Source: Archangium sp.
Lineage (GTDB): Bacteria; Myxococcota; Myxococcia; Myxococcales; Myxococcaceae
DNA: 64,000 nucleotides
NCBI GenBank assembly: GCA_030695565.1
Contig: JAUYRZ010000042.1
Location: forward strand, 87,879-151,878
Direction of reading: 5' to 3'
Below, one piece after another: positions 13,266-55,499 of this stretch (positions are counted from its first letter, which is position 1; the number at the start of each line of letters is the position of its first letter). The notes below the pieces were generated by a model, which ran no database searches, had not been told where the DNA came from, and saw only the letters and a list, made by a program, of their open reading frames with translations. The position numbers and the translations under genes were made by a program.

Positions 13266-13840
13266 TCCCGGCCCAGGTACACGTTGTCGATACACGCGGT
13301 GTCATTGAGCCCATCGAAGAACTCGCCGCGAATGCGCACGCTGCGCAGATCGCTGAGCACGGTGCGCAGATCCGCCTCGGTCGCATCGGCACCGGGACCA
13401 CTGGGCTCATCGATGCGCCACCCCGAGGAGCCGTCGAAGCGCACCGAATACGGAGTCCAATCGAGGCCCGGCGCGAAGCGGAGGAACCAGGTCACCGCGA
13501 GCCCGCCGCCGTTGAGCACCACGTCGCGGCCGCGCACCTGGTTGAAGATGGTCGCCTGCTTGAGATCGAAGGTGAGCCGCTTGCCCATGGCCGCCGACGC
13601 GTTGCCCAGGAACTTCTGGGGGGCGACGAAGTACCAGGTGTCGCCATTGCCTTCGTCGCGGCCGCACAGGTGGCCTGCGGGGTTGCCCCCTTCACGGATC
13701 AGCTGGGGCGGAGGCGAGGGGTCTCCGTTGTTGGAGAGCGTCCACGCTTCGTCGTCACCCTCGAAGGTGCTCCCGGCGAAAGCAGCGGGCCCGCAGGCGA
13801 AGGCGAACAGCGCGAAGGCGGGCACGACCAGGAAACGCAC
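13262..13840 (-). CDS. Secreted laminin-B-type domain protein
   Basis: The 192-residue product begins with a signal sequence (MRFLVVPAFALFAFACG), which could be processed as a lipoprotein at the Cys or by signal peptidase I after AFA. The body resembles the laminin B (domain IV) fold: STFEGDDEAW, YFVAPQKFLGN and KRLTFDLKQA are typical. It is probably an extracellular beta-sandwich binding module. The start is GTG at 13840, with TACAAC 6 nt upstream and no Shine-Dalgarno, consistent with a leaderless transcript. The YkgJ gene follows with overlap. Confidence 0.8.
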   Translation of the reverse strand: MRFLVVPAFALFAFACGPAAFAGSTFEGDDEAWTLSNNGDPSPPPQLIREGGNPAGHLCGRDEGNGDTWYFVAPQKFLGNASAAMGKRLTFDLKQATIFNQVRGRDVVLNGGGLAVTWFLRFAPGLDWTPYSVRFDGSSGWRIDEPSGPGADATEADLRTVLSDLRSVRIRGEFFDGLNDTACIDNVYLGRD

Positions 13841-13846
13841 GCGCTC

Positions 13847-13852
13847 GTTGTA
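13847..13852 (-). promoter_or_regulatory. -10-like box TACAAC, leaderless candidate
   Basis: TACAAC preceded by TGA (extended -10, TGATACAAC) ends 6 nt before the GTG at 13840. Transcription would start at or next to the start codon. Confidence 0.45.
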
Positions 13853-13870
13853 TCAGAGCGAGGCCGCCTG

Positions 13871-15034
13871 TCATGGCAATGGCGGCGGCCAGGGCTTGAG
13901 CCCGGAGATGCGCTCCGAATCGGTGGTCACCTGTTCGACCTGCGCGCGTTCGCGGCGGCAGAAGTCCTTCACGGCGCGTTCGAGGCCGGGGTGGAAGATC
14001 TTGTGCACGCTGTGGATCTCGGTGGGCTCGAAGCCGCGGGAGATCTTGTGCTCTCCGCCCGCGCCCGGCTCGAACACCTGCAGCCCCCGCGCGATGGCAT
14101 CGTCGACCGAGTGGTACAGGCAGACGTGAAAGTGGAGGAAGGGGTGCTCTTCAAAACAGCCCCAGTACCGGCCGTAGAGCCGCTGCGGGGTGTGCAGGTT
14201 GAAGGCGCCGGCGATCACCTCGTTCTTCTGCTCGGCGACCACCAGCTCGATGGCGTCGGGCATGTCGGCGAAGGCGCGGTGAAAGAAGTCTCGGGTCAGC
14301 TGAATCGGCCCCCACGCGTGCCGGGAGGCGGTGGCTTCGTAGAAGCGCCAGGCGAGCTCGGCGTGCTTCTTGGTGAGCTCCGCGCTGCGCACCGTGCGCA
14401 AGGTGATGCCCTGGGTGGCGGCGGCGGCACGCTCTCGCTTGAACTGGTTGCGCCGCTTGGAATCGAAGCGCGAGAGGTAGTCGTCGTAGGTGCGGTAGCC
14501 GGGGTTCTGCCAGTGGTACTGCATGGTGCTGCGGCGGAAGAAGCCGGCCGCCTCGAGGGTGAGCGCTTCGGCTTCGGGAGGGAAGAGCACGTGCAGCGAA
14601 GAGCAGCCCTCGTCTTTCGCCCACCCGGTCATCGCGGTGAGCAGCGCGCGGCGGAGCTTTGGTTCGTCTTCTCCCGGGGCGACCAGAAACCGGCGCGCGG
14701 TGAGGGGCGAGAGCGGCAGGCCGACGAGGAGCTTGGGGTAGTAGTTCACGCCGAACTGCTGCGCGGCGTTGGCCCAGCCGAAGTCGTAGACGTATTCGCC
14801 CATCGAGTGGTGCTTGCGGTACGCGGGCGCGGCGGCGACGAGGGCGTCACCCCGCCAGAGCGTGAAGTGAACGGGCTCCCAACCGCGTTCGGCCGAGGCA
14901 GAGCCGGACGCTTCCATGGCGTGGATCCACTCCCAACGCAGCACCGGCGCGTCGGAGGGGACGAGGAGGGCGTTCCATTGGGTGCGAGGTGCGTCGGTGA
15001 TCGACTCGAGCACCCGAAGGCGTGGCTCCGACAT
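13871..15034 (-). CDS. FemAB-like GNAT-fold protein (peptidogalycan biosynthesis/recognition family)
   Basis: The 387-residue protein matches the DUF482 / FemAB-like family. It shows WIHAMEASGS near the N-terminus, a central AFNLHTPQRLYGRYWGC and a late FEPGAGGEHKISRGFEPT region followed by a short tail. Members are GNAT-related and are thought to transfer acyl or aminoacyl groups in envelope metabolism; the substrate here is unknown. No signal peptide is seen. The start has TAGCTT 9 nt upstream and no Shine-Dalgarno sequence. The gene is monocistronic by spacing (30 nt to the next minus-strand gene). Confidence 0.87.
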   Translation of the reverse strand: MSEPRLRVLESITDAPRTQWNALLVPSDAPVLRWEWIHAMEASGSASAERGWEPVHFTLWRGDALVAAAPAYRKHHSMGEYVYDFGWANAAQQFGVNYYPKLLVGLPLSPLTARRFLVAPGEDEPKLRRALLTAMTGWAKDEGCSSLHVLFPPEAEALTLEAAGFFRRSTMQYHWQNPGYRTYDDYLSRFDSKRRNQFKRERAAAATQGITLRTVRSAELTKKHAELAWRFYEATASRHAWGPIQLTRDFFHRAFADMPDAIELVVAEQKNEVIAGAFNLHTPQRLYGRYWGCFEEHPFLHFHVCLYHSVDDAIARGLQVFEPGAGGEHKISRGFEPTEIHSVHKIFHPGLERAVKDFCRRERAQVEQVTTDSERISGLKPWPPPLP

Positions 15035-15043
15035 CAGGCGAGC

Positions 15044-15049
15044 AAGCTA
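15044..15049 (-). promoter_or_regulatory. -10-like box TAGCTT, leaderless candidate
   Basis: TAGCTT ends 9 nt before the ATG at 15034 with no Shine-Dalgarno between them. Confidence 0.45.
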
Positions 15050-17112: not shown

Positions 17113-17171
17113 GTCATCCCACTGTCATGAGCGCGCGCGTGGAGGGCGCCCAGCGTCATCCAACTGTCATG
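17113..17171. promoter_or_regulatory. 17-bp direct repeats, 42-bp period, upstream of desaturase
   Basis: GTCATCCCACTGTCATG (17113-17129) recurs as GTCATCCAACTGTCATG (17155-17171), 16 of 17 bases identical. The 42-bp period is about four helical turns, so two protein subunits could bind on one DNA face. The repeats lie upstream of the desaturase GTG; the second also touches the 3' end of the M50 gene. Confidence 0.55.
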
Positions 17172-18585
17172 GCTGCGTCGAATGACCCAAAGACGCCAGC
17201 CAACCGTCGAATTCGGGCTTCCCGCGCAAGGATTTCAGGTCGGGGTCGGTGCGCGCTTCGGCCGCGTTCCGGTAGCCATTCTGCGCCGCCAGGGTGAGCA
17301 AGCGCAGGGCCTCGTCGGGCCGGTTGGCCTGCGCCCAATCGCACGCCGCCGTGTACGCGAGGCTCGCGTGCGGCTCTTCGTGAAACGCGGCTTCAGCGGC
17401 CTGGGCGGCCCTGGTGAAGTCCTGCCGCACGTAGTGAACCCGCTCGGCCATGGAGAACGCGCGCGCCATGCGAACGCCCGGCAGCGCCCGTGCTTCTTTC
17501 TCCCGCTCACCGCGAATGAGGGCACCCGCGAACTCGTGCAGCAGGGCCTCGTCACCGCTTTGAGCGGCCTGGGCCCAGAGGGGGATCGCGCGCGTCTCGT
17601 CGCCCACCAGGCTGAAGCCGGCGGCCAACGCATGCGGCGGCACCTGGAGCCCCTGCACCTGGCTGAAATGATCCAGCGCACGGCGGCCGCTGCTCTCCTT
17701 GAGCGAGATCCACCCGAGCAACACGTGCGCGCGGCTGCGAAGGAGGGGCGGGGTGTCGGCCGCCTCGATGACGCCGCTGGCGATGAGCCCGGCCTCGGTG
17801 AGTTTGTTCTCGCGATACAGCGTCTCGGCCCGTTCGATGACCGTGGTGAGCGGGTGCGCAGCGAAGCCGGTGGGCAGCTCTCCGCGCTGGTAGGCGCCGA
17901 TGTTCGCGAAGGTGCGCATCACCATCAACGCCACCAACGCGGCCACGAAGATCTGCTGGGTGGCGATGGAGGCCATCAACAGCAACGCGGCCATGCCCAG
18001 CGCGACCACCTGGGCCACCATGAAACCCGGGCGGCCGAGCATGCGGGTCAGCAGCACGGTGGTGATCCGCCCGCCATCGAGCGTGCTGATGGGCAGCAGG
18101 TTGAGCGCCGTCCAGAACAGGTTGGCGAAGGCGATGCCGCTGGCGAAGTAGCGCGCCCAATCAGGCAGCACCGGGCCGCCCACCAGCGCGACGAGGCCGG
18201 CGAACACTCCGAGCGCGAGACCGGCAGCGGGGCCGGCGAGGGTGAAGAGCAGGTCTTGCCACCACTCGAGGTGTTCGGCGCCTTCGGCCCGCGTGAGGCC
18301 ACCCAGGCCGACGAGCTGAATGCTGGGCTTGGCTCCGAAGCTGCGCGCGGCGAAGGCGTGACCGAGCTCGTGCACCAGCACCGAGAACGAGACCAGCGCC
18401 ATCCAGCCCAGCACCACCGCGATCAACGTGGGCGTGCGCAGCGGGTGGTTCACGTTCGAAAGCACCTGCGTGGGCCAGGCGCTGGGGCCTTTGTAGTCGA
18501 TGAAGCCCCAGGCAATGAGCGCACTGATCGCCAGGTGAATCGCGTGCACCTCGACGGGGATGGAGCCAACGCGGAAGCGGATCAA
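17167..18585 (-). CDS. Site-2-protease-family (M50) membrane metalloprotease with C-terminal helical-repeat region
   Basis: The 472-residue protein has the zinc-binding motif HELGH at residues 72-76 inside a membrane segment. The second M50 motif LDGGR follows in another hydrophobic segment. About six hydrophobic stretches fill the first ~240 residues. The C-terminal half is soluble and Ala-rich, with TPR-like spacing (AETLYRENKLTEAG, RALDHFSQVQG). The family cuts membrane-embedded substrates; the substrate is unknown. The start is TTG at 18585, with TAGAAC 9 nt upstream and no Shine-Dalgarno sequence. Confidence 0.87.
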   Translation of the reverse strand: MIRFRVGSIPVEVHAIHLAISALIAWGFIDYKGPSAWPTQVLSNVNHPLRTPTLIAVVLGWMALVSFSVLVHELGHAFAARSFGAKPSIQLVGLGGLTRAEGAEHLEWWQDLLFTLAGPAAGLALGVFAGLVALVGGPVLPDWARYFASGIAFANLFWTALNLLPISTLDGGRITTVLLTRMLGRPGFMVAQVVALGMAALLLMASIATQQIFVAALVALMVMRTFANIGAYQRGELPTGFAAHPLTTVIERAETLYRENKLTEAGLIASGVIEAADTPPLLRSRAHVLLGWISLKESSGRRALDHFSQVQGLQVPPHALAAGFSLVGDETRAIPLWAQAAQSGDEALLHEFAGALIRGEREKEARALPGVRMARAFSMAERVHYVRQDFTRAAQAAEAAFHEEPHASLAYTAACDWAQANRPDEALRLLTLAAQNGYRNAAEARTDPDLKSLRGKPEFDGWLASLGHSTQP

Positions 18586-18594: not shown

Positions 18595-18600
18595 GTTCTA
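18595..18600 (-). promoter_or_regulatory. -10-like box TAGAAC, leaderless candidate
   Basis: TAGAAC ends 9 nt before the TTG at 18585. The divergent alkylation-repair gene starts at 18640, so promoters for both fit in 54 nt. Confidence 0.4.
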
Positions 18601-18639
18601 ACATCCGACACGGCCGCATGCCTTCGCTAGAAGCAGCGC

Positions 18640-19725
18640 ATGGCTGAGCCGTTCAAGAACCTCATCGGACCCGCGCAGGTCGACTGGCTTGCCGGTCGCC
18701 TGTCCGCGGCCTGGGCTGCGTTTCCTGCCGACGAATTCCGGCGCAAGGCGAAGGCGGGGCTCGCGTCGCTCGAGCTGAAGGCGCGCGCTCGGCATCTGGC
18801 TGATGCGCTCGAGGCCACGCTCCCTCAGAAGCAGGCGCTCGAGGTGCTGATCAAATTGCTCCAGGCGGAGCAAGGTGAAGGCGGTGGTTTCCGCTACCTC
18901 GCCATCAGCGAGTTTCTCGAGCGGCGCGGCCCCGACGATGTCGAGCAGGCGCTGCGCGCGAACTACGAACTGACTCAGCGTTTCACGAGCGAGTTTTGCA
19001 TTCGCACGCTGATCTTGTCAGCGCCCGAGCGCACGATGAGCGCGCTGACGAAGTGGGCCGGTGATCCCAGCGAACACGTGCGCCGGCTCGTTTCAGAAGG
19101 CACCCGGCCGCGCTTGCCCTGGGGGCGTCAACTGCCTCCGTTCATCGCCGACCCCTCGCCGGTTCTCCCGCTGCTCGAGCGCTTGAAAGACGACGAGAGC
19201 GAATACGTGCGCCGCTCGGTGTCGAACAATCTGAACGACATCGCGAAGGATCACCCCGAGGTGGTCTTGAAGATCGCCAAGGCGTGGCTGGTGAAAGCGA
19301 GCCCCCAGCGCAAGCGGCTGGTGGAGCACGGCCTGCGCACGTTGCTCAAACGCGGCGATGCGCGCGCCCTCGCGTTGATCGGTGCTCACGGCGCTGACTC
19401 TCTACGCGTCACGGGCAAGGTCAGCCCGGCGCGGGTGAAGCTGGGCGATCGGGTGACCTTCGTGGCCACGGTGCGCAATGACGGCAAGAAGCTGCTCCAC
19501 GCGGTGCTGGAAGCCCGGGTGCACTTCGTCAAGGTGAAGGGCACCTCGGTGAAGCCGTTCCGCCTGGCGCGGGTCGATTTGAAGCCCGGGCAGGAGGTGG
19601 CCATCACCCGTTCGCTCGAGCTGCAGCACCGCAGCATTCGCCGGTTGTTCACCGGGGTTCACGAGGTGGAATTGCAGGTCAACGGCGCCCGCTCACCCAT
19701 GGGGAGCTTCAGGTTGGAGGTGTGA
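18640..19725 (+). CDS. DNA alkylation repair protein (AlkC-like HEAT-repeat glycosylase)
   Basis: The 361-residue protein has an N-terminal part (about 1-220) of helical HEAT-like repeats matching the AlkC/AlkD superfamily. The conserved stretch RRLVSEGTRPRLPWG and the repeat unit YVRRSVSNNLNDIAKDHP are characteristic of AlkC. Family members excise alkylated bases such as 3-methyladenine. The last ~90 residues (RVTGKVSPARVKLGDRVTF) look like an Ig-like beta domain, as in some longer AlkC forms. The DusB start lies 40 nt after its stop. Confidence 0.83.
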   Translation: MAEPFKNLIGPAQVDWLAGRLSAAWAAFPADEFRRKAKAGLASLELKARARHLADALEATLPQKQALEVLIKLLQAEQGEGGGFRYLAISEFLERRGPDDVEQALRANYELTQRFTSEFCIRTLILSAPERTMSALTKWAGDPSEHVRRLVSEGTRPRLPWGRQLPPFIADPSPVLPLLERLKDDESEYVRRSVSNNLNDIAKDHPEVVLKIAKAWLVKASPQRKRLVEHGLRTLLKRGDARALALIGAHGADSLRVTGKVSPARVKLGDRVTFVATVRNDGKKLLHAVLEARVHFVKVKGTSVKPFRLARVDLKPGQEVAITRSLELQHRSIRRLFTGVHEVELQVNGARSPMGSFRLEV

Positions 19726-19750: not shown

Positions 19751-19756
19751 TACAGC
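19751..19756 (+). promoter_or_regulatory. -10-like box TACAGC, leaderless candidate
   Basis: TACAGC ends 9 nt before the dusB ATG at 19766. It is flanked by imperfect inverted bases (GGGGTTGC and GCAAGCCCC). Confidence 0.4.
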
Positions 19757-19765: not shown

Positions 19766-20833
19766 ATGTTGCCCATCGGTCCCTACACCCTGAGAAACCG
19801 CTTCATCCTCGCGCCCATGGCGGGGGTCAGCGAGATGCCGTTTCGCGTGATCGCCTTCGAACAGGGCGCCGCGCTCGCGCCCACGGAGCTCATCAGCGCG
19901 CAGGGCCTCTTCCGCATCAGCTCGCGCACGCTGCGCTACCTCCGCTACGACCCGAAGATCGAGAAGCCGTACTCACTGCAGCTCTTCGGCGGTGAGCCTG
20001 ACGTGATGGCCAAGGCCGCGGTGATCGCCAAGGAATACGGCGCCCAGATCATCGACATCAACATGGGCTGCCCGGTGAAGAAGGTCACCAAGACGGGCGC
20101 GGGTTCGGGCCTGCTGTGTGACTCCTCGCGCGCGGGTGAGATCGTGCGGCAGATCAAAGAGGCCACCGGGCTGCCGGTGACCGTGAAGATCCGCAGCGGC
20201 TGGGATGCGAACCAGAAGAACTTCCTGCAGATGGCCGACGTGCTAGGGGCCGCGGGCTGTGCCGCGCTCGCCGTGCATCCGCGCACGCGTGCGCAGGGGT
20301 ACTCGGGCAAGGCCGACTGGTCGGTGATCACCGATCTCAAGAAGCACGTGGGCAACGCGTTCCCCATCATCGGCAACGGCGACGTGAAGACGGTCGAAGA
20401 CGCCACGCGCATGCTGGAGACCACCGGTTGCGACTACGTGATGATCGGCCGCGGCGCGCTGGGCAATCCGTGGCTGTTCCGGCAGCTGCTCGGCGGCGCC
20501 AAGCCCAGCAACGCCGAGCGCATGGAGCTGGTGCTGCGCCACTTCCGTCAGCACATGACCTTCTCGGCTGAAGCGCGCGTGCACCGCGAGCTCCTCCCGC
20601 CTGAACAGCGCGCGGCGAAGGATGAGCTGCAGGGTGTGCACAGCTTCCGCAGCCACCTGGGCTGGTATGCGCACGGCCTCCACGGAGCGTCGGTGTTCCG
20701 CGCTGCCATCAACCACGCCGACTCGAAGAAGGAAGTCGAAGACGCGCTGGAGAAGTTCTTCGTGGGTGCTTCGACCGACATGAACGCGCCCGAGACGGAG
20801 CAAGAACTCGATTACCGAACCGCGCTCGGCTGA
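19766..20833 (+). CDS. dusB: tRNA-dihydrouridine synthase (DusB-like)
   Basis: The 355-residue TIM-barrel flavoenzyme reduces specific uridines in tRNA to dihydrouridine. The N-terminus (LPIGPYTLRNRFILAPMAGV) and the NMGCPVKKVTKTGAGSGLL motif with the catalytic Cys are typical of Dus enzymes. IGNGDV and MIGRGALGNPWLF bind FMN. I start at the ATG at 19766 because family members begin just before the IGP motif; the TTG at 19727 would add 13 unlikely residues. Confidence 0.93.
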   Translation: MLPIGPYTLRNRFILAPMAGVSEMPFRVIAFEQGAALAPTELISAQGLFRISSRTLRYLRYDPKIEKPYSLQLFGGEPDVMAKAAVIAKEYGAQIIDINMGCPVKKVTKTGAGSGLLCDSSRAGEIVRQIKEATGLPVTVKIRSGWDANQKNFLQMADVLGAAGCAALAVHPRTRAQGYSGKADWSVITDLKKHVGNAFPIIGNGDVKTVEDATRMLETTGCDYVMIGRGALGNPWLFRQLLGGAKPSNAERMELVLRHFRQHMTFSAEARVHRELLPPEQRAAKDELQGVHSFRSHLGWYAHGLHGASVFRAAINHADSKKEVEDALEKFFVGASTDMNAPETEQELDYRTALG

Positions 20834-26647: not shown

Positions 26648-28399
26648 TCAGGTCACGTTGTCCCAGATGTAACCCTCCGCATCGAGGGCGTGGTCGGCCA
26701 ACGACTTCACGTACTCGTCGTCGTTGTCGTCGATCTGGCTCAGGTTCAGGCGCACGCGCTGGCGCACCTGGCCGGTGAGCACCTGGAGAATCTCCAGCTC
26801 CTTGGTGACCGACCCGGCGCCCTTCTCGGTGACCGCGGTGGAGACGCGCGCCATCGTGCAGGACAACACGAACAGGTCGATCATCATGTCCGCCATGCGG
26901 CGGCTGGCGAACTGCTTGCCGATGATGTTCTTGCCGTGCTTGCGCAAAATACGATCGACCGAGGTGGCCAGATCGCGCGTGAGGTCCTGGAAGACGCTCT
27001 GCTCCTTGTGCAGCGCGGGGTGCAGCTTGGTGAACAGCGCCTTGTCGCGCTTCACGTAGGTGGTGGCCAGCGACGCGCGGCGCCGCGCGTAGTCGGAGAT
27101 GACGCCGAAGCCCTTGATGGGGTTGTCGAAGATGCCCTTGAGCGAGCTGGCCAGTTCTTTGAGCTCGCTGCCCACTTCGTTCATCGCGGTCAGCGCGATG
27201 AAGAGCCGCAAGATGTCGTTGGTGCCTTCGAAGATGCGGTTGATGCGCGCGTCACGCAGCGCGCGCTCGTAGGGGAACTCGCGCATGAAGCCGTTGCCGC
27301 CGGCGATCTGCAGCGCCTCGTCGATGGTGCGCCACATCGCCTCCGAGCCGTACACCTTGGTGATGGCCGCCTCGACTGCGTACTCCTCGTGCCCGGAGTC
27401 GATGAAGTGGTTCACCATGTTGACGGCTGATTCCGTCGCGTAGCAATCGACCACCATGTTGCCGAGCTTCTGTTTGATGAGGCCGTACTCGGCGATGGGC
27501 TTGCCGAACTGCACGCGCTCCTTGGCCTGCTTGGTGGCCAGCGCGATCATCTTCTTCATCGCGCCCACCGAGCCGCCGCCCAGGCCCGTGCGGCCCGAGT
27601 TGAGGATCTTCATCGCCACCTTGAAGCCCTTGCCCACTTCACCCAGCACGTGGCTCTTCGGCACGCGCACGTTCTCCAGAATGACGGTGGTGGTGTTCGA
27701 GGCGCGCAGGCCCATCTTGTCTTCGTGCGGGCCTGTGCTGACGCCTTCCATGTCGCGGGTCACCACGAAGGCCGTCATGTGGCCGCGTTCGGCCTGGCCG
27801 CCGGTCTTGGCGAACACCGTGTAGAACTGCGCGATGCCGCCGTTGGTGATCCACAGCTTGCTGCCGTTGAGCACGTAGTCGTCGCCGTCGAGCACCGCGG
27901 TGGTCTTGATGCTCGCCGCATCGGAGCCCGCGCCCGGCTCGGTCAGACAGAACGCCGCGATCATCTCACCGGTGGCCAGCTTGGGGCACCACTTCGCCTT
28001 CTGCTCATCGGTGCCGAACAACAGCAGGCCGCGCATGCCGATCGATGAGTGCGCGCCGACCGTCACCGCCACCGAGCCGTCGTACTGCGCCAGCTCCTGC
28101 AGCGTGCGTGAGTAGGCGGTGGTGGAGAGCGCCATGCCCCCGTGCGCCTCGGGGATGAGCAGGCTGAACAGGCCGAACTGCTTCATCTCTTCGAGGAAGG
28201 AGTCGGGCATCTCGCCCTTGGCGTCCCACTCCCGAAAGTCTTTCTCGTGCGGCTTGAGCAGCTGCTCGATCGACCCGCGGATGTTCTTGAACACCTCTTG
28301 ATCGGTGTCCTTCATCTTCGGGTAGGGGAGGATCTGGTCCTCCTCGATGGAGCCGAAACAGAGCTGCGAGATGAACGACGGGGCGTTGTTGGTAGCCAT
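26648..28399 (-). CDS. Long-form acyl-CoA dehydrogenase
   Basis: The 583-residue flavoenzyme catalyses the first step of beta-oxidation. FAD and substrate motifs are visible: FCLTEPGAGSD, LWITNGG and GNGFMREFPYERALRD. The catalytic Glu is in RIFEGTNDIL, the position typical of the very-long-chain (VLCAD/ACAD9) type. A C-terminal extension of ~170 residues also fits that type. It complements the FadN/FadA pair at 7.7-11.2 kb. TACCTT lies 9 nt before the ATG with no Shine-Dalgarno sequence. Confidence 0.93.
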   Translation of the reverse strand: MATNNAPSFISQLCFGSIEEDQILPYPKMKDTDQEVFKNIRGSIEQLLKPHEKDFREWDAKGEMPDSFLEEMKQFGLFSLLIPEAHGGMALSTTAYSRTLQELAQYDGSVAVTVGAHSSIGMRGLLLFGTDEQKAKWCPKLATGEMIAAFCLTEPGAGSDAASIKTTAVLDGDDYVLNGSKLWITNGGIAQFYTVFAKTGGQAERGHMTAFVVTRDMEGVSTGPHEDKMGLRASNTTTVILENVRVPKSHVLGEVGKGFKVAMKILNSGRTGLGGGSVGAMKKMIALATKQAKERVQFGKPIAEYGLIKQKLGNMVVDCYATESAVNMVNHFIDSGHEEYAVEAAITKVYGSEAMWRTIDEALQIAGGNGFMREFPYERALRDARINRIFEGTNDILRLFIALTAMNEVGSELKELASSLKGIFDNPIKGFGVISDYARRRASLATTYVKRDKALFTKLHPALHKEQSVFQDLTRDLATSVDRILRKHGKNIIGKQFASRRMADMMIDLFVLSCTMARVSTAVTEKGAGSVTKELEILQVLTGQVRQRVRLNLSQIDDNDDEYVKSLADHALDAEGYIWDNVT

Positions 28400-28408: not shown

Positions 28409-28414
28409 AAGGTA
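28409..28414 (-). promoter_or_regulatory. -10-like box TACCTT, leaderless candidate
   Basis: TACCTT ends 9 nt before the ATG of the acyl-CoA dehydrogenase at 28399. Confidence 0.45.
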
Positions 28415-30133: not shown

Positions 30134-31437
30134 GCTGCGGACTTCTGCTCTGCCGGTGGCGGGGGCGTCAATCGCCGCGTGGTGGCCACCGTGCGGTAGT
30201 ACTCGCAGGCCGCGGTCCACTGGCGCTCCATGGTGGTGCGATCCACCCGGTAGAGACCGAACTTCGGGCCCCACGCCTCGAGCCACTCGAAGTTGTCCAT
30301 CAACGACCAGTGCAAATAGGAGCGCACGTCGACGCCGTCTGCGCGGGCCAGCAGCAGCTCGCGCCAGTGCTCGTAGAGATACTGGGGCCGCCGCGAGCCG
30401 GTGCGATCGTCGAGGCCGTTCTCGGTGATCCACACCGGGCGGTCGTACCGCTTGAGCTGGCGGAGGATCTGCCCGAAGCCTTCGGGGTACCACTCCCAGC
30501 CGATGTCGGTCAGGCCGCGCGCGTGGTGATCGAGAAACTCGAACTGCACGAAGGGCGCCTGGGTCACGAAGCGCAGGTGCGCACGCGTGTAGTAGTTGAG
30601 CCCGGTGAACTCGGTCGATTTCGCGGCGCCGTCGATCTTCTCTTTGCCCGCGGTGAAGCCCGGCATTTGCAGCTTCAGCACGCCGGTGGAGAGCGTCTCC
30701 AGGATCGCGTGGTTGTAGTTGCCCTCGGCGAGCCGGGAGAGCGCCTGATCGAGGGGATGCCACCGCCGCGTGGGCGCGAAGAGCAGCATGTTCTGCGCGA
30801 TGCCGATCTCCATGGGTCCGCACCGGTCGAGCAGCGCCTGCCGGGCGATCACGTGCGCGCGCACCAGGTTGGCCATCGCCGCGAACGCCTTGCGGCCATC
30901 CGACACACCCGGCGGCATCGCGCCTGCCAGGTAGCCGCCCAGCAACAACACGTTGGGCTCGTTGAGCGTGGTCACCGCGACGTTGAGCCCCGAGACCAGC
31001 TCCGCGCATTTGTCGGCGAAACGGCTCCACGCGACGAGCGAGGCCGGCTCGTGCCACGGGGTCTCGACGTGGAACCACTTCGGGTGCGTGAAGTGAAGCA
31101 GGGTGACCACGGGCCGAATGCCCGCCTTCACCAGCGCTTCCAACCGCGCGCGGTAGCCCGACCAGGCGGCGTCGTCCCACGTTCCCCGCTTCGGCTCGAC
31201 GCGCGCCCACTCGATGCTCAAGCGGTACGCGGTGGCGCCCAGCTGCTGAATCAACGGCACGTCGTCGAAGAAGCGCTCCCAGTGCTCGACTGAGTTTCCG
31301 CAGCGGGCGTCGGCCTCCTTGCACTTGCCCGCGCGCTCCCAGTCGCTCCAGTCGTTCTCGATGCCGCCTTCCACCTGGTAGGCCGAGGTGGCCACGCCAA
31401 AGGTGAAGTCGGGAGGGAACTCGAGAACCGAAGTCAC
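30130..31437 (-). CDS. Glycoside hydrolase family 1 protein (beta-glucosidase-like)
   Basis: The 435-residue TIM-barrel enzyme has the GH1 acid/base motif TLNEPN and the nucleophile motif ITENG (WITENGLDDRTG). The start of the barrel (PPDFTFGVATSAYQVEGG) is conserved. It should hydrolyse a beta-glycoside, probably in the cytoplasm because no signal peptide is visible. I use the GTG at 31437, which overlaps the larB stop as GTGA; the ORF to 31719 adds an Arg-rich non-coding extension. Being coupled to larB is unusual. Confidence 0.92.
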   Translation of the reverse strand: MTSVLEFPPDFTFGVATSAYQVEGGIENDWSDWERAGKCKEADARCGNSVEHWERFFDDVPLIQQLGATAYRLSIEWARVEPKRGTWDDAAWSGYRARLEALVKAGIRPVVTLLHFTHPKWFHVETPWHEPASLVAWSRFADKCAELVSGLNVAVTTLNEPNVLLLGGYLAGAMPPGVSDGRKAFAAMANLVRAHVIARQALLDRCGPMEIGIAQNMLLFAPTRRWHPLDQALSRLAEGNYNHAILETLSTGVLKLQMPGFTAGKEKIDGAAKSTEFTGLNYYTRAHLRFVTQAPFVQFEFLDHHARGLTDIGWEWYPEGFGQILRQLKRYDRPVWITENGLDDRTGSRRPQYLYEHWRELLLARADGVDVRSYLHWSLMDNFEWLEAWGPKFGLYRVDRTTMERQWTAACEYYRTVATTRRLTPPPPAEQKSAA

Positions 31438-32102
31438 TTCGCGCGCTCGATCGTGTGCAGCACGCGCATCGCCGCGCAGGCCGCTCCGTAGCCGTTGTCG
31501 ATGTTGAGGGTGACCACGCCCGGCGAACAGCTGGACAGCATCGAGTGGAGCGCGGTGTGACCGCCTGCAGCCACGCCGTACCCGGTCGAGGTGGGCACGC
31601 CGATGATCACGCCGCCGAAGAGCCCGCCGACCACGGTGGGGAGCGCGGCGTCCATGCCGGCCACCACGATGGCGATGCTGTGTTCGCGGATCGCTTCGAG
31701 CCGGTTGAGCAGCCGCCACAAGCCGGCGACGCCCACGTCGGCGAACAGCGTCGAGGGCACGCCCGACCAGCCCAGGGTGCGCTGGATCTCGCGCGTCACG
31801 TGCGCGTCGGAGGTTCCCGCCGCCAGCACGGCGATGCGGGTGGGGCCGGTCTCGGCTTTGGGTTTTCCGAAGTAGGCCGTGCGGGAGAAAGACTCGTAGT
31901 CGAGCTCGTCACGATCGGTTTTCGGCAGGGCGTCGAAGGCTTCCTGGGAAAGGCGGGTCAGCAGAAAGCGCGCCGACTTCTCTCGCGCTGCCGCGAGGAT
32001 CTCGGTGAGGTGCTCGGTCGTCTTCCCCTGAGAGAGGATGGCTTCGTCGAACCCGATGCGCTCGCCGCGCTGAAAGTCGAGCATCACTTCAGAAGTAGGC
32101 AT
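31434..32102 (-). CDS. larB: Nickel pincer cofactor biosynthesis protein LarB
   Basis: The 222-residue protein matches LarB, the NaAD carboxylase/hydrolase that begins synthesis of the nickel-pincer cofactor of lactate racemase-type enzymes. The C-terminal AIR-carboxylase-like domain is clear: VLAAGTSDAHVTREI, VVAGMDAALPTVVGGL and GVPTSTGYGVAAGG. LarC and LarE are not in this window. The ATG at 32102 is preferred over the upstream alternative because family similarity starts there and TACTGC lies 6 nt upstream. It heads a four-gene coupled operon. Confidence 0.9.
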   Translation of the reverse strand: MPTSEVMLDFQRGERIGFDEAILSQGKTTEHLTEILAAAREKSARFLLTRLSQEAFDALPKTDRDELDYESFSRTAYFGKPKAETGPTRIAVLAAGTSDAHVTREIQRTLGWSGVPSTLFADVGVAGLWRLLNRLEAIREHSIAIVVAGMDAALPTVVGGLFGGVIIGVPTSTGYGVAAGGHTALHSMLSSCSPGVVTLNIDNGYGAACAAMRVLHTIERAK

Positions 32103-32108: not shown

Positions 32109-32114
32109 GCAGTA
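32109..32114 (-). promoter_or_regulatory. -10-like box TACTGC, leaderless candidate
   Basis: TACTGC ends 6 nt before the larB ATG at 32102, with no Shine-Dalgarno sequence. Confidence 0.4.
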
Positions 32115-34018: not shown

Positions 34019-34024
34019 TACGCT
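34019..34024 (+). promoter_or_regulatory. -10-like box TACGCT, leaderless candidate
   Basis: TACGCT ends 7 nt before the ATG at 34032 without a Shine-Dalgarno sequence. Confidence 0.45.
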
Positions 34025-37204: not shown

Positions 37205-37207
37205 ATG

Positions 37208-37279: not shown

Positions 37280-37293
37280 ATGTGAACTTGAAG

Positions 37294-37367
37294 AGCCCCA
37301 GGTCGGGATTGAACCGACGACCTCCGGTTTACGAAACCGGCGCTACTGCCAACTGAGCTACTGAGGC
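37294..37367 (-). tRNA. tRNA-Thr(CGT)
   Basis: The acceptor stem GCCTCAG/CTGGGGC has one U-G pair. The anticodon arm is CCGGT-TTCGTAA-ACCGG (anticodon CGT) and the T-arm GTCGG-TTCAATC-CCGAC. CCA is not encoded. Confidence 0.92.
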
Positions 37368-37370
37368 GTG

Positions 37371-39981: not shown

Positions 39982-42648
39982 TCAGGGGCAGGTGGCCACC
40001 AGCTCGATTGCCAGCCCCGTCTGACTGAACAGATAGAGATGTTCGGTGTTGCCCACCCGCGCCTTGTGCATCGCCGCGGCCCAGTGCGCACCGAAGCCAT
40101 CGAGCCCGGGGGAGGCGGCCTCGAGCGAGACGCGCTTCCAGGTGCCCAGCGGCGGCGTCTCGAGTGAGAGCTGGTACAGCGCGCTCGCGCTCAGCGCGAA
40201 GGCCTGCCCGCACAACGAGCCGTAGTTGAGCACCGTCGGCAGCGGCGCTTCGGGTATGGGGGGCGAGATGGGCACTGGCACGGGCAGGCCGAACACGCGG
40301 CCATCCGACGTTCCCACCCGGCCGCGTTTCCCTTCCATCCACACGGCGACGGCGACGGCGGTCGTCTCACCCAGCCGCAGCTCGTCGGTGAGCCAAAGGG
40401 TGGGGCTGTGCACCACCACGCGGAAGAGGCGTTGCTGCTCCACGGTGTAGCCATCGAGCAGGGGCCCGGTGCCCGCGTCACCCCGATCGAACGCGGCGAA
40501 GGCGAGCGACTGAATGTCGGCAGACGGCAGGGGCACCGCCTTGATGCCGATGCTGGGAACGCCCGCGTCGCTGGCCAGCAGCCGGGAGTCGGTGGCCCAG
40601 ATGCGATCACCTGCGCCCACGATGAGCCAGGGCAAGCCCTCTGCATCGGTGGCGATCGTCGAGAACGCCCTGGTGCCGCTGGCGTCGATCAGCATGCCGC
40701 CTACGGACGAAGGAAGCAGATCGTCGGAACGCGCGAAGACGGCGTGCGGCAGAACCGGATCGCCGGGCATGCTGCTCAGCTTTCGGAGCATCGGCTGCAC
40801 GGCGAGCGTTTGGCCGCCCTGGGTGCCTTGCCGGCCCGTCGAGCTGATCATCCAGTCCGGGTTCTCCGTCACGCTGCCGGCGATGTAGAGGTTCGAGAAG
40901 TTGGCGAGTCGCATTCCGAGCGGGCTCGACAAGCCGCTCGGCGGCGTCCGGAACTGGGCGGACTCGTCGATGACGTCGTCGTTGTAGGTGCCGAGCAGCC
41001 CCGGCCCGCCTGCGACCCGATCGGGTGCAGTGGCAGAGAGCATGGTCTCGCAGCCGGGCAGCGGGCACCTTCGGGGAATGCCGACCTCGTCGAGACCCTG
41101 CAGTCCCTCTGTCTGCGCGGAGACCTGGTAGCCGCGGCTCACGCTCAGCGGCAAGCTCACTGGGTCGAGGCTGCAACCGCCATCGAATGAGAGGTGCCGG
41201 TAGCCCACCACGCTCGCGCCTCCATCGGCAGCCGTGCGCTGACACAGCGCCAGCACCGCCGAGTTCAAGGTGTTGAGCGACTCGATGCCGGTCTTCAGCA
41301 ACACTTCGCCCGGGCCGCACGCCGTACACGGACCGTACTCGGGGTCGAAAGCAAGCGAGTCACACGGGGCCTTGTTCGGCTCGGTGTACGGACGCTTGAA
41401 GACGGACAGGCGGCGATCCTGATCGGTGATCGCGGTGAGCAGGCGCTTGTCGCTTTCGTACGAGAGCCGATCGAGGGGCGTGGGGGTGGCCGAGCACGCA
41501 TCGCTCAAACCGGGCAGCGCCATGCGGCGCCAGACGGGCGCGGCGACCAGGCCTCCGTCGAGCGCGAGGTACGAGGAGCCTTGGCGCGGAGCGAACCAGG
41601 GGCCAGCCGTGGTCGCAGCCAGCGCCGAGCGCCGCCCGAGGTTGTCGGCATCGACGAAGGCGACGTCGGTGACCGTCGCGCTCAGCGTGGTGACCTGAAA
41701 GACAGACGGATCGCATTGCGTGATCGACATGCTGTCACGACCACACAACCCGACCGTGGTGCCTGAGAAAGCGGCCAGCTCTTCCTGCGGAAAAGCGGAG
41801 CTGTCCCCCACGGCGTAGCGGAACTCGGCGTTCGCCAGCCCAGGGAAGACCAGCAAGGCCGCGCCGCCGTCGAGCGCATCGCGGTAGTCCACGATGCCGC
41901 TCGAGTCGGACACGAGCAGGTGGTTCGAGAACTCCACGAGCGCGTGGGGCGGCCGGATCAGAGGCGTCGACTCGCGCGAGGAAGAAAACGTGGGCCCCGG
42001 GTGCGCCGCGGTGTTCGTCACCACGAAGAGCCCGCCGTCGGCGGTGAAGGTCATCCGGTTGTTGGGAAAGCTGTTGCTGAGGTCTGCGCGCGTGACGCTC
42101 ACCTGGAGAAGCTCGACTTCGGAGGGCAACAACGGGCTCACCTTCGCCAGGGTGAAGGTGACCGAACCGGCCTGGAGACCCTGCGCTGCCACGTCGACGC
42201 ACGCACCTTCGGGGCCGCACCGCCACGTCGCTTCGCAATCGGAGTCGCTCACGCACAGGTACGCCGCGCCCGCGTCGAGCGGGTGACAGACCTGACCGCG
42301 CACCTCGCGGCCGCAGCGCCACCCCGGCGCGCAGTCACCCGCATCGGGGATCGCTTCCGCAGCCGTCCTGCACGAACGATCCTGAGCGGCAGCGCGGTCG
42401 TAACAGACGCGCTCCGTCCCACAGTGCCAGGTGGTCGAGCAGTCAGCCGAGCTCTCGCAGGCATACGGCAACGCCTGACCAGGGTTCAGGCAGTAGCCGG
42501 AGAGCCCACAGCGCCACCCTCCGGGGCAGGCGTTGAGCCCTTCGAGGCGATCACACGCGTAGAGCCGGGGCACCTCGTCGACGAGGCTGTTGGTGCAGCC
42601 GCTCAACGAAAGCGCCAGCAAGCCGAACAGTCGCAGCGTGGTCTTCAT
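39982..42648 (-). CDS. Large Cys-rich lipoprotein, unknown function
   Basis: The 888-residue product has a lipoprotein signal (LALSLSGC). About four Cys-rich modules follow in the first ~170 residues, with the pattern WRCGxxxxCxD (TWHCGTERVCYD, WRCGPEGACVD). The rest is a long non-repetitive beta-rich region, possibly propeller-like, with no catalytic motif I recognise. Its ATG overlaps the TAA of the upstream gene by one base (TAATG), so the two are coupled. It is likely an outer-membrane or surface protein. Confidence 0.8.
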   Translation of the reverse strand: MKTTLRLFGLLALSLSGCTNSLVDEVPRLYACDRLEGLNACPGGWRCGLSGYCLNPGQALPYACESSADCSTTWHCGTERVCYDRAAAQDRSCRTAAEAIPDAGDCAPGWRCGREVRGQVCHPLDAGAAYLCVSDSDCEATWRCGPEGACVDVAAQGLQAGSVTFTLAKVSPLLPSEVELLQVSVTRADLSNSFPNNRMTFTADGGLFVVTNTAAHPGPTFSSSRESTPLIRPPHALVEFSNHLLVSDSSGIVDYRDALDGGAALLVFPGLANAEFRYAVGDSSAFPQEELAAFSGTTVGLCGRDSMSITQCDPSVFQVTTLSATVTDVAFVDADNLGRRSALAATTAGPWFAPRQGSSYLALDGGLVAAPVWRRMALPGLSDACSATPTPLDRLSYESDKRLLTAITDQDRRLSVFKRPYTEPNKAPCDSLAFDPEYGPCTACGPGEVLLKTGIESLNTLNSAVLALCQRTAADGGASVVGYRHLSFDGGCSLDPVSLPLSVSRGYQVSAQTEGLQGLDEVGIPRRCPLPGCETMLSATAPDRVAGGPGLLGTYNDDVIDESAQFRTPPSGLSSPLGMRLANFSNLYIAGSVTENPDWMISSTGRQGTQGGQTLAVQPMLRKLSSMPGDPVLPHAVFARSDDLLPSSVGGMLIDASGTRAFSTIATDAEGLPWLIVGAGDRIWATDSRLLASDAGVPSIGIKAVPLPSADIQSLAFAAFDRGDAGTGPLLDGYTVEQQRLFRVVVHSPTLWLTDELRLGETTAVAVAVWMEGKRGRVGTSDGRVFGLPVPVPISPPIPEAPLPTVLNYGSLCGQAFALSASALYQLSLETPPLGTWKRVSLEAASPGLDGFGAHWAAAMHKARVGNTEHLYLFSQTGLAIELVATCP

Positions 42649-43454
42649 TAGAAGCTCCCCGCGAACGCGACACCCGAGCCGGTGAACATCATCGCCACCG
42701 AGACCTCACCGCTCGCAGGCCCCGAGGGCAGCAGGTAGATGCCCACGCCGATCAACGCCGCACCGCCGCAGAGGGCCGCCAGACCGATGCTCTTCTGCAC
42801 CGCGAGCTCGTCTCCCTTCTGCTGGTAGTAGGCGGGGTTCTCCAGCAACCCCGAGGTGCGTTCACCCGACTCGAGGTCGTGACGGAACTGCTGCTCCTGA
42901 ATCAGGGCCGAGGCGCCCAGCGCCAGACCGACCGCGGCCGCTGCGCTTCCGGCGCCGATGAAGGCGAAGCCGGGCACTTTGGAGGGGCGCGGCGGAGGTG
43001 GCGTGGCGGTCGCTTCAGCCAGCGCCCAGGGCAGCAACTGGCGCAGCGTCTCCGCGTCACGCGCGATGCGAATCGAGCGGGCCACCACCTGCGATTTCGA
43101 CACGTCGATCATCTGCATCGACAGCTGCAGGGACGGGCCGATCTGGCTGATGGTTCCGCTGAGCAGGTACGGCGCGCCCATCGCACCGGCGAGCTCGGTC
43201 AGGCAGCTCGAGGCTTCCGCGCACCCCATCAGCTGCTTCTGCCGCTCGAGCCCGAGAATCGTCTGCACGTCTTTCGAGGTGAGGCTGCGGAAGTAGCCGC
43301 GGCGATCGATCTCCGGACCCACGCCGTCGGAGATCGATTCGGCGGTGGCCGCGTCGACCCCTCGTACGGTGAACTGCTGCACCAGCAACCGGGGCACTTC
43401 GGGGGAGGCGGTGGCGGCCACCAACTGCAGGACGAGCGGGAAGGCGACTGGCAT
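42648..43454 (-). CDS. Secreted/membrane protein with FlgO/CsgG-like N-terminal region
   Basis: The 268-residue protein starts with a short signal (MPVAFPLVLQLVAATA). Its first ~150 residues resemble the fold in which an envelope protein scans for existing components, as in FlgO or CsgG-like lipoproteins (VQQFTVRGVDAATAESISDG, GAPYLLSGTISQIG). Two hydrophobic segments near the C-terminus separate a charged loop. The resemblance is by pattern only. It is coupled to the 888-residue lipoprotein and is preceded by TAAGCT 6 nt before the ATG. Confidence 0.68.
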   Translation of the reverse strand: MPVAFPLVLQLVAATASPEVPRLLVQQFTVRGVDAATAESISDGVGPEIDRRGYFRSLTSKDVQTILGLERQKQLMGCAEASSCLTELAGAMGAPYLLSGTISQIGPSLQLSMQMIDVSKSQVVARSIRIARDAETLRQLLPWALAEATATPPPPRPSKVPGFAFIGAGSAAAAVGLALGASALIQEQQFRHDLESGERTSGLLENPAYYQQKGDELAVQKSIGLAALCGGAALIGVGIYLLPSGPASGEVSVAMMFTGSGVAFAGSF

Positions 43455-43460: not shown

Positions 43461-43466
43461 AGCTTA
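43461..43466 (-). promoter_or_regulatory. -10-like box TAAGCT, leaderless candidate
   Basis: TAAGCT ends 6 nt before the ATG at 43454; the gap is CCCCCC. Confidence 0.45.
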
Positions 43467-43540: not shown

Positions 43541-43546
43541 TAGCTT
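43541..43546 (+). promoter_or_regulatory. -10-like box TAGCTT, leaderless candidate
   Basis: TAGCTT ends 9 nt before the ATG at 43556. It lies between GCGGG and CCCGC, a small palindrome like the one at 11279. Confidence 0.4.
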
Positions 43547-43555: not shown

Positions 43556-43708
43556 ATGCTCACTTCTGCGCTCTTGGTTTGTGTCTTCAGCTGCTCAGGG
43601 AGGGGCAGACCGCGCGAGAGCTTCAATACGTCTCGTGGCGCATCGACGCTTCCGATGACCGCGATGGCGCCTTCGAATACCCAAGCGAGGTTGTGGCTCC
43701 GGCGCTAG
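43556..43708 (+). CDS. Possible 50-residue small lipoprotein
   Basis: A 50-codon frame starts MLTSALLVCVFSCSG, a short but plausible lipoprotein signal with Cys13. The remainder is Arg- and Ser-rich with no recognisable domain. The next gene starts 9 nt after its stop. It may be a real small protein, a leader peptide, or chance. A -10-like box 9 nt before its ATG supports transcription from here. Confidence 0.4.
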   Translation: MLTSALLVCVFSCSGRGRPRESFNTSRGASTLPMTAMAPSNTQARLWLRR

Positions 43709-53972: not shown

Positions 53973-54605
53973 TCAGTGCAGCACGGCGACGCGGGTGGCC
54001 ACGAGCGACACGCCGTAGAGAGAGTAGGCCCCGACGGGGTCCGGGCCGGACCGGCACGAGAGGTAGATCGTGCCCGCCCCGGTCAGGGTGGTCGTCGCGA
54101 GCAGGGACAGGTTGTTGTACTCCGAAGGACCAGACCCTGAATTCGTGAAGTCCAGGCTCGGGCCGCCCAGGGTCGAGGTGATCGAGCAGAGGAGGCTGTG
54201 CGCCCCGGCCGTCGGGCTGGCGATTCCGTAGAGCTTCGCGGCCACGACGTAGCTGCCCGCAGGCACCGCCACCGAGGTCACCGTCGAGAGACCCTGCGTC
54301 GACTGGATCGAACCCCCGCCGGGCTGCGAGGCCCACGATTCGGGGCTCATCTCGCGAAGCTGCGAGAAGTTGTAGTTCACCTCGGCGGCGGTCGCGGGGC
54401 TGTTGGCGACGAAGCAATACTGCAGACCGTTGGGGCAGTTTCCGCTGGCCGCCCAGGCGGTCCCGGCAGCGAGGGCGACCAGCCCGACGAGCGCACCCCT
54501 CTGCAGCCGTCGCCGTGGCTGGGCCTTCTCCAGGTCGACGAGGCGCGACCGCAGGGTGGCTACTTCGGTGTCGAGCGCCTTCAGGGCTTCATTCGGGTCG
54601 AGCAT
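53973..54605 (-). CDS. Secreted protein with tail-fibre-like NxPATAAEVN motif
   Basis: The 210-residue product has a short cytoplasmic coiled-coil-like start (EVATLRSRLVDLEKAQ) and one hydrophobic segment (GALVGLVALAAGTAWAAS). The motif NSPATAAEVNYNFSQLRE, often seen before beta-rich tails in tail-collar and secreted proteins, follows. The rest is a beta-sandwich-like region. It could be a type II membrane or exported protein. The ATG at 54605 has GGAG upstream. Confidence 0.77.
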   Translation of the reverse strand: MLDPNEALKALDTEVATLRSRLVDLEKAQPRRRLQRGALVGLVALAAGTAWAASGNCPNGLQYCFVANSPATAAEVNYNFSQLREMSPESWASQPGGGSIQSTQGLSTVTSVAVPAGSYVVAAKLYGIASPTAGAHSLLCSITSTLGGPSLDFTNSGSGPSEYNNLSLLATTTLTGAGTIYLSCRSGPDPVGAYSLYGVSLVATRVAVLH

Positions 54606-54660
54606 GGGAACTCCAGGGTGGGGATTGGGGATAAGACGCGGAGACTTGGTGAAGAGCAAG

Positions 54661-54935
54661 TCAGGCCTCGCTCCGTGACGACACCAGCATCGTGGCCATC
54701 GCCCGCGTGACAGCCGGTGTGACGCGCGCGTTGCCGACGTTCGCGTATCGCCAGGCCTTGTCGTCGGAGTCTTGTTGATGAGCTCGATCCGCTCCGCGAT
54801 CTGCACCGCAGCTGCGCCTGGAAGCTCGCCACCTCGTGGATGGTGTTCTCGTTGAGCAGGTCCCTCGAACCGCTTCGGGCGCAGTGTCCCCATGGGCCGA
54901 CCCATGAACGGACGAAGTGGGTCAGCTACGAGCGC
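54661..54935 (-). pseudogene. Multiply frameshifted unrecognised remnant
   Basis: Three minus-strand frames join as a plausible protein. First comes RDLLNENTIHEVASFQAQL, then VQIAERIELIN in a second frame, then DSDDKAWRYANVGNARVTP in a third, ending with TGA at 54661. I do not recognise the family. The remaining 54606-55008 sequence is intergenic with no other coding signal. Confidence 0.3.
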
Positions 54936-55008
54936 GCCCATCCGCCTTCTCTCGATGGCGAGCGGGGGGCGAAGCCCTTCGTTCCCGAAGCGAACACGCG
55001 CAGCTCTC

Positions 55009-55036
55009 TTGACATGAAGAATCTTGACGTTAAGCT
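55009..55036 (+). promoter_or_regulatory. Promoter of the MarR-pirin-NmrA operon
   Basis: TTGACA (55009-55014) and TAAGCT (55031-55036) are 16 bp apart. The -10 box ends 7 nt before the GTG at 55044, so the transcript should be leaderless or nearly so. Confidence 0.6.
55023..55034. promoter_or_regulatory. MarR-type operator candidate, CTTGACGTTAAG
   Basis: The 12-mer is a near-palindrome (10 of 12 positions symmetric) that overlaps the -10 box. It resembles operators of autoregulating MarR proteins. The MarR gene follows directly. Confidence 0.55.
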
Positions 55037-55043
55037 AAGTTCC

Positions 55044-55499
55044 GTGAGCGACACGTCGGGCACCCACCTCTGGCTGGTCCTGATGAAGGCGCACCGCGCG
55101 CTGGCGCGGCACGCGAAGCAGAGCATCGAGGGGCTCGAGCTTGGCTTCTCGGACTTCGTCATCCTCGAACTGCTGCTCCATCGGGGCCCTCAGCCGGTGA
55201 ACGCGATCGGCAGGCGCATCGAGCTGACCAGCGGCGCGATCACGACCGCGGTGGACCGGCTCGAGGCGCGCGGGCTGGTCGCGCGGACGCACGACGCCGA
55301 GGACCGGCGGGTTCGCACGGTGTCGCTGACCAAGGAGGGGCGGAGGCAGATCACCGCCGCGTTCGAGCAGCACCAGCGCTCGATGATCCGGGCCGCGTCC
55401 GGCCTGACCAGCGGCGAGCGGGCCAGCTTGATCGCCCTCGTGAAGAAGCTCGGCACCACCGCCGAGGAGCAGCTGAGAGGAGCCAGCGATGTTCCGTGA
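55044..55499 (+). CDS. MarR-family transcriptional regulator
   Basis: The 151-residue protein has the winged-helix core (RRIELTSGAITTAVDRLEARG, then RTHDAEDRRVRTVSLTKEG) typical of MarR. Effectors are usually small phenolics or electrophiles; here unknown. I choose the GTG at 55044, not the ATG at 55014, because that ATG overlaps the -35 hexamer. The coding part overlaps the next gene by 11 nt. It likely represses its own operon through the operator at 55023. Confidence 0.9.
   Translation: MSDTSGTHLWLVLMKAHRALARHAKQSIEGLELGFSDFVILELLLHRGPQPVNAIGRRIELTSGAITTAVDRLEARGLVARTHDAEDRRVRTVSLTKEGRRQITAAFEQHQRSMIRAASGLTSGERASLIALVKKLGTTAEEQLRGASDVP

Follow-up and report, generated by a model that had tools for sequence, protein, structure and literature searches.

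Boxes Upstream of Start Codons in the Window

The stretch of DNA analysed here, referred to below as the window, comprises 64,000 nucleotides of a 151,878-base contig from a genome of 8.5 Mb in 134 contigs. It holds a series of genes whose start codons are preceded at 6-10 nt by a hexamer of the form TANNN(T/C), resembling the -10 element of a promoter, and these genes are very probably members of a wider set that would be transcribed without a leader. GC content across the window was 65-70%, and its acyl-CoA dehydrogenase shared 76-93% identity with proteins encoded at 10 loci in genomes of uncultured Archangium, Myxococcaceae and Myxococcales. Judged by its sequence, the source is a Myxococcota genome near Archangium.

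An earlier inspection of the letters alone (the sequence-only reading) had listed eleven such hexamers and claimed that ATG, GTG and TTG are all used behind them. All eleven were found in place, and the three start codons were all present at the eleven sites (Table 1). Seven of the boxes are TANNNT and four are TANNNC. Ten precede genes that were also called by a coding-score gene finder, although for two of these the finder chose another start (15013 versus 15034, and 32087 versus 32102); close orthologues align from the start given by the sequence-only reading.

The eleventh box, at 43541, could not be upheld as the box of a gene. The 50-codon open reading frame (ORF) behind it had a coding score of -0.24 per codon, compared with a mean of +0.29 for the window genes, and the next gene, 43718, had no match in 30 relatives.

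Table 1. Hexamers and related elements upstream of start codons in the window; distances run from the box to the start codon.
Element	Sequence	Position	Strand	Start codon	Distance	Gene behind it	Remark
Box	TACAGT	11294..11299	+	ATG 11310	10 nt	11310-11753, L7/L12 C-terminal-domain protein	
Box	TACAAC	13847..13852	-	GTG 13840	6 nt	13262-13840, Laminin_B domain	inside the 30-nt gap behind gene 13871-15034
Box	TAGCTT	15044..15049	-	ATG 15034	9 nt	13871-15034, FemAB-like	
Box	TAGAAC	18595..18600	-	TTG 18585	9 nt	17167-18585, M50 peptidase	
Additional box	TAGAAG	18628..18633	+	ATG 18640	6 nt	18640-19725	sixth base G; not in the sequence-only reading; divergent partner of TTG 18585 across 54 bp
Box	TACAGC	19751..19756	+	ATG 19766	9 nt	19766-20833, dihydrouridine synthase Dus	
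Box	TACCTT	28409..28414	-	ATG 28399	9 nt	26648-28399, acyl-CoA dehydrogenase	
Box	TACTGC	32109..32114	-	ATG 32102	6 nt	31434-32102, AIR carboxylase-like	
Box	TACGCT	34019..34024	+	ATG 34032	7 nt	34032-34598, pRiA4b ORF-3-like	
Box	TAAGCT	43461..43466	-	ATG 43454	6 nt	42648-43454, no Pfam match	
Box	TAGCTT	43541..43546	+	ATG 43556	9 nt	43556-43708, 50-codon ORF	rejected as gene start
Candidate -35	TTGACA	55009..55014	+				full match, 16 bp before box 55031; read from the sequence
Box	TAAGCT	55031..55036	+	GTG 55044	7 nt	55044-55499, MarR family	
Additional box	TAGAGC	63320..63325	-	GTG 63313	6 nt	62549-63313	not in the sequence-only reading

Gene Set and Positional Enrichment

Genes were called in the window and in 39 further stretches of the same genome, together 820,107 bases or about a tenth of the genome, with a home-made finder that places starts by coding score. 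From 712 genes called, 630 were kept after removal of those with a score below 20, no start codon or less than 100 nt of upstream sequence. A gene was classed as leading when its upstream neighbour lay on the opposite strand or at least 40 nt away on the same strand. This gave 407 leading and 217 operon-type genes, the remaining six, without an upstream neighbour, being left out. Operon-type genes were divided into those overlapping their neighbour and those 15-39 nt downstream of it; genes at 0-14 nt entered neither class. Background was estimated from 200 dinucleotide shuffles of the upstream regions.

The peak at 6-10 nt that the sequence-only reading had predicted for a positional count over a shuffled control was observed. 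TANNNT was present at this distance in 45 of the 407 leading genes, compared with 5.4 ± 2.3 after shuffling (the largest of the 200 values being 14), and TANNN[TC] in 68 compared with 14.2 ± 3.3, so that about one in five TANNN[TC] matches is expected by chance. The TANNNT peak was sharp, with counts of 2, 13, 9, 7, 10, 6 and 3 at 5 to 11 nt. Within the window, the 36 leading genes called by the finder included 5 with TANNNT, 8 with TANNN[TC] and 14 with any TA box, all at 6-10 nt.

In some boxes at 6 or 9 nt the TAG or TAA is also an in-frame stop codon. In the corresponding control on leading genes, TAYNNT, which never forms a stop, occurred 27 times versus 2.1 per background window, and TGANNT occurred 3 times versus 6.1. 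Internal in-frame ATG and GTG codons (n = 12,332) had TANNNT at a rate of 0.0017 per start, and ATG or GTG in upstream intergenic DNA had it in 7 of 283 cases (2.5%); the values for shuffled sequences and called starts were 1.3% and 11%, respectively.

Shine-Dalgarno (SD)-like 4-mers were themselves enriched at 6-10 nt, with 87 versus 12.2 expected in operon genes and 87 versus 33.8 in leading genes. The absence of an SD site at boxed starts, another claim of the sequence-only reading, was borne out for the population: an SD-like 4-mer at -16 to -5 was found in 1 of 45 boxed versus 87 of 362 unboxed leading genes, a rarity that is partly forced because the box occupies the SD site. With the zone extended to -20 to -5, the numbers were 5/45 and 100/362. 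The 3' end of the 16S rRNA carries a normal anti-SD sequence, GGATCACCTCC.

Promoter Context of the Boxes

For the promoter context, 117 boxed leading genes were pooled across 13 genomes. Matches of at least 4/6 to TTGACA were found in 11 genes at a spacer of 17 and in 7 at a spacer of 16, compared with a mean of 1.9 at the other spacers between 8 and 40, with 16-18 left out. A G two bases before the box, at promoter position -14, was present in 72 of the 117 genes. TANNNT copies lying 14-55 nt upstream had the same -35 spacing (19/143 at spacer 17), as would be expected if a single sigma factor served both leadered and leaderless promoters. On this evidence the boxes appear to be sigma70-type promoters, with a -10 element characterized by TA and a T at position 6 and a -35 element discernible at the level of the population.

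In mid-spacer, 15 bases before the box begins, a G was also found in 51% of the boxed leading genes. This feature is unexplained, and it is perhaps a chance result among many columns.

Conservation in Orthologues

Orthologues were counted for nine of the ten supported genes, with the expectation taken from other windows of the same upstream regions. Excluded were orthologues with at least 99% or less than 38% identity, those whose alignment began after residue 12, five in which no start was found, and identical upstream regions. A TA at 6-11 nt was present in 70 of the 119 counted orthologues, with 7.3 expected, and SD-like 4-mers in 29 of the 119. The TA was kept while the flanking sequence diverged. 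Nine of the ten genes retain the TA box in at least three orthologues; the exception is the MarR gene (55044), whose sole usable orthologue was unboxed (0/1).

Conservation was complete for the M50 peptidase gene (18585), with 14 of 14 orthologues boxed and 1.0 expected. The counted proteins, down to 39% identity, aligned beginning at codon one, their boxes lying at 6-9 nt, and six distant members carried TAAGGT at 7-8 nt. For the FemAB-like gene (15034) 15 of 20 orthologues had the TA (1.0 expected), and for Dus (19766) 17 of 29 (1.8 expected). Of the 16 orthologues of the AIR carboxylase-like gene (32102), five were boxed (0.4 expected), and each of these was among the six with at least 61% identity. 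TANNNT was found in 4 of 5 orthologues of the PRiA4 gene (34032). Gene 13840 had the TA at 6-9 nt in 5 of 8 orthologues with the start as printed, and in two more when examined by eye, 10 nt from an adjacent in-frame GTG or ATG.

All three counted orthologues of gene 11310 had TANNNT at 6-11 nt, with a spacing of 10-11 nt; two distant hits outside the count (44% identity, one shared upstream region, first 12 residues unaligned) were unboxed. The 11310-11753 protein is small and has a hydrophobic N-terminus; it matches the L7/L12 C-terminal domain in two stretches and also DUF6793. For gene 43454, 3 of 10 orthologues were boxed, including both with at least 80% identity, at exactly 6 nt. The protein it encodes belongs to a large paralogous set, which reached as many as 30 matches in a single relative genome.

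A different pattern was seen for the acyl-CoA dehydrogenase gene (28399), in which 9 of 21 orthologues were boxed and the other 12 had an SD-like 4-mer. At 75% identity or more there were nine distinct upstream regions, all boxed at 6-10 nt and none with an SD-like 4-mer; below 70% identity, in six other families, all twelve upstream regions had an SD-like 4-mer and none had a TA at 6-11 nt. This gene shows the boxed and the apparent SD-led modes replacing each other between lineages, and the switch may reflect very few evolutionary events.

Gene Layout

The frequency of the box varied with the length of divergent gaps. In this genome, TA at 6-10 nt was found at 17 of 25 starts in gaps of 15-60 bp (an SD-like 4-mer in 3), and at 14/33, 19/75 and 17/65 starts in gaps of 60-100, 100-200 and 200-400 bp, respectively. 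For TANNNT alone the corresponding values were 8/25, 5/33, 5/75 and 9/65, a less regular trend. When twelve relatives were included, any TA box was present at 50 of 110 starts in gaps below 100 bp versus 39 of 195 in gaps of at least 200 bp (Fisher p = 4e-6), and TANNNT at 25/110 versus 23/195 (p = 0.014); both p values are optimistic, as the starts are paired and the genomes related. The box is thus commonest at divergent start codons less than about 60-100 bp apart, which would fit a leaderless promoter as a layout suited to such gaps.

Among 37 close divergent pairs (15-130 bp), TA at 6-11 nt was present on both sides in 10 and on one side in 17. The tightest of these ten doubly boxed pairs, in stretch L076 (12914/12951) of this genome, has 36 bp between its start codons, with both boxes inside. 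In this pair and in that of stretch L019 (13014-13078, start codons 63 bp apart), TANNNT occurs on each strand between the start codons, so that the two promoters would overlap, each competing with the other for polymerase.

For genes inside operons, the sequence-only reading had proposed overlaps or SD sites instead of boxes. This held for genes overlapping their upstream neighbour, where TANNNT was at background (1/100 in this genome, 1/151 in the relatives). It did not hold for genes that follow a same-strand neighbour at a distance of 15-39 nt; these were enriched for TANNNT (8/68 and 12/70, respectively), gene 13840 being an example. At that distance the stop codon of the upstream gene cannot provide the TA of the box, and leaderless starts would therefore occur within close gene strings as well.

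Match coordinates place the M50 and Dus genes directly next to each other in divergent orientation, with a gap of 43-126 bp, in 13 of 18 relatives of the same genus or family (G001, G002, G004, G007, G008, G009 and G011-G017). In the window the gene 18640-19725 sits between them, and the gap in relative G005 is of similar size. Elsewhere in the window, four tRNA genes (Cys, Gln, Gly and Thr) are clustered at 37044-37367 on the minus strand.

Share of Boxed Genes and Occurrence in Other Genomes

The share of boxed genes was estimated with an expectation-maximization (EM) model with the classes SD, TA and no signal and with flat starting positions. About 90% of the TA motif mass fell at 6-10 nt. 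The matrix of the box had T at 0.72 and A at 0.70, and at position 6 T at 0.54 and C at 0.37, so that the T/C ending of the consensus in the sequence-only reading was learned by the model itself. In a held-out version, trained on half of the stretches and applied to the other half, TA was assigned to 38% and 31% of leading genes (208 and 191 genes), and to 0.6-0.8% of shuffled upstream regions. The plain excess of TANNNT corresponds to about 10% of leading genes, and the TA-led share was taken to lie in the range of 10-38%.

The twelve Myxococcota relatives, spanning congeneric genomes through to other families within the phylum, were sampled at 100 kb each and pooled. TANNNT was found in 72 of 593 leading genes versus 10.7 expected, and the stop-codon control gave 27 versus 5.5 for TAYNNT and 3 versus 4.2 for TGANNT. 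When the model of this genome was applied to each relative, TA was assigned to 0.14-0.38 of leading genes and to 0-0.17 of shuffled upstream regions. Two contrast genomes had TANNNT counts of 0/66 (3.2 expected; Sinorhizobium pSymB) and 3/84 (2.3 expected; Cupriavidus). For pSymB the model gave 0.06 and 0.18 after shuffling, and the shuffled value for Cupriavidus was 0.04.

Interpretation

RNA usually begins 6-8 nt after the -10 hexamer. It is very probable that a subset of genes in this genome carries a sigma70-type -10 box 6-10 nt ahead of the start codon and that their RNA would begin at the start codon or at most about 4 nt before it, making these genes leaderless. The suggestion of the sequence-only reading that transcripts begin at the start codon is supported by the positional peak, the accompanying promoter elements and the conservation in orthologues, the 5' ends being predicted ones. 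According to the proposed mechanism, RNA polymerase would start at the start codon or within about 4 nt upstream, and translation of the resulting mRNAs is predicted to proceed without an SD site. The 5'-terminal start codon would be recognized directly, presumably by the route through IF2 and initiator tRNA that passages of PMC10783764 describe for leaderless mRNAs. With a normal anti-SD sequence and SD sites used elsewhere in the genome, leaderless and SD modes would coexist.

Several observations weigh against this interpretation. The held-out model also assigned TA to 17% and 20% of operon-type genes, and the EM model refitted on shuffled upstream regions still yielded 25-30% TA, with diffuse positions. 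The freely fitted fraction was for that reason dropped as evidence, which leaves the figures from the fixed model and the held-out test as the only ones that count. Shuffled upstream regions of relative G053 scored 0.17 TA, and Cupriavidus, although a contrast genome, scored 0.15 by the model. The positive control, plasmid 2 of Deinococcus deserti, gave only 5/69 versus 2.8 by raw count, which marks the raw count as blunt; by the model it reached 0.43, with 0.16 after shuffling. The -35 signal is weak: 21 of 117 genes had a best match of at least 4/6 to TTGACA within spacers 16-18, versus 7 of 117 in each of two control sets (spacers 22-24 and spacers 9-11), and spacer 39 alone also reached 7. 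In the orthologues the sixth T was poorly kept (TANNNT in 28/119 versus TA in 70/119), so the conserved element is mainly the TA. The N-terminus differs by a few codons among the FemAB orthologues, and a box 9-10 nt from the start codon could leave a leader of 1-4 nt. Finally, both the 5' ends and the protein N-termini were derived from the sequence, with starts taken from the home-made finder.

Short leaders form the basis of the alternative given most weight, namely that the RNA begins 1-5 nt ahead of the start codon, chiefly at boxes 9-10 nt away. It overlaps the leaderless interpretation, which allows up to 4 nt, and it is considered rather unlikely. Six of the eleven window boxes lie at 9-10 nt and the boxed orthologues of gene 11310 keep 10-11 nt, in agreement with such leaders. 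Boxes at 6-8 nt, however, are commoner (29 of the 45 TANNNT) and would start the RNA at the codon itself; moreover, such leaders would be too short for an SD site, and the consequence for translation would be much alike.

It is improbable that the boxes are ordinary -10 elements of leadered promoters, with the start mis-called and the true start, provided with its own SD site, lying further downstream. Starts were placed by coding score alone, the two discordant window starts were off by a few codons, and the varying FemAB N-termini point in the same direction. The M50 orthologues, on the other hand, all align from codon one with their box in place, and the counted orthologues of gene 11310 and four of five PRiA4 orthologues retain box and start together. 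In addition, a peak confined to 6-10 nt, as observed, would be smeared if the true starts lay at unrelated positions downstream.

Even less credit can be given to the view that the TA motif acts in translation or as an AT-rich upstream element, serving for example ribosomal protein S1, and not as a promoter. AT-rich signals before starts are known in Bacteroidetes and other groups, according to passages of Zheng et al. 2011 (PMC3160421). A purely translational motif of this type was rejected for the boxes on account of the -35-like element at 16-17 bp and the G at -14 in the population, the spacing shared by the more distant TANNNT copies, and the background level in overlapping operon genes. 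Chance, or an artefact of in-frame TAA and TAG stops before called starts, is scarcely credible as a full explanation: several boxes do hold such a stop at 6 or 9 nt and about 14 of the 68 TANNN[TC] matches are expected by chance, which may apply to single sites such as 43541, but it is refuted by the TAYNNT control, together with the unenriched TGANNT and the TA retained in diverging orthologues.

A wider proposal is put forward tentatively, as somewhat short of probable. Throughout the Myxococcota, leaderless promoters might be the standard packing of back-to-back divergent genes, with start codons 36-60 bp apart, a -10 element for each gene and the -35 element reaching into the promoter or coding sequence of the partner. 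The two genes would then compete for polymerase, and orthologues would switch between SD-led and leaderless modes from family to family. Myxococcota orthologues that have an SD leader in some lineages and a leaderless promoter in others would provide a comparative system for a change of initiation mode, and narrow intergenic gaps would be linked to leaderless promoters in a testable manner. The findings also bear on the annotation of start codons in myxobacterial genomes.

Comparison with Known Systems

The best-known cases of leaderless initiation come from archaea, Actinobacteria and Deinococcus-Thermus. The signal described here is of a known kind; conservation, the switch of mode and the trend with gap length are added here, no dedicated literature search having been made for these three. 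Among the papers listed in a literature search, an incomplete set judged by title and start of abstract, no report of leaderless start sites in myxobacteria was found. Leaderless transcription has been predicted in 21.6% of bacterial species, as given in passages of the StartLink paper (PMC9581028).

The passages of Zheng et al. 2011 (PMC3160421) describe TA-led leaderless genes as strongest in Actinobacteria and Deinococcus-Thermus, and report leaderless genes in 8 of 33 delta-proteobacteria, averaging 15.8% (5.7-20.6); neither Myxococcus nor Sorangium is mentioned in the main text. In the sense of that study, the boxed genes of this genome would be TA-led, with a TANNNT-like core about 12 bp upstream occurring above background, and with an absence of SD sites that is partly forced.

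Relative to SD-led initiation in the same genome, the two signals share their zone, as SD-like 4-mers peak there too, but boxed leading genes rarely have one (1/45). In Deinococcus radiodurans, according to passages of PMC12340547, TANNNT adjoining the ORF was tested as the -10 element of leaderless genes, with spacing requirements; its main text contains no match to "Myxococc". The motif is the same, in another phylum and experimentally tested there, while the evidence presented here is that of sequence. A close likeness is to the TA-led genes of Zheng et al. 2011 (PMC3160421), in whose passages TANNNT about 12 bp upstream is read as a -10 box and stands beside SD-led genes in high-GC genomes, as it does here. 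Conservation of the box among orthologues in myxobacteria, which those passages do not include, is demonstrated in the present analysis.

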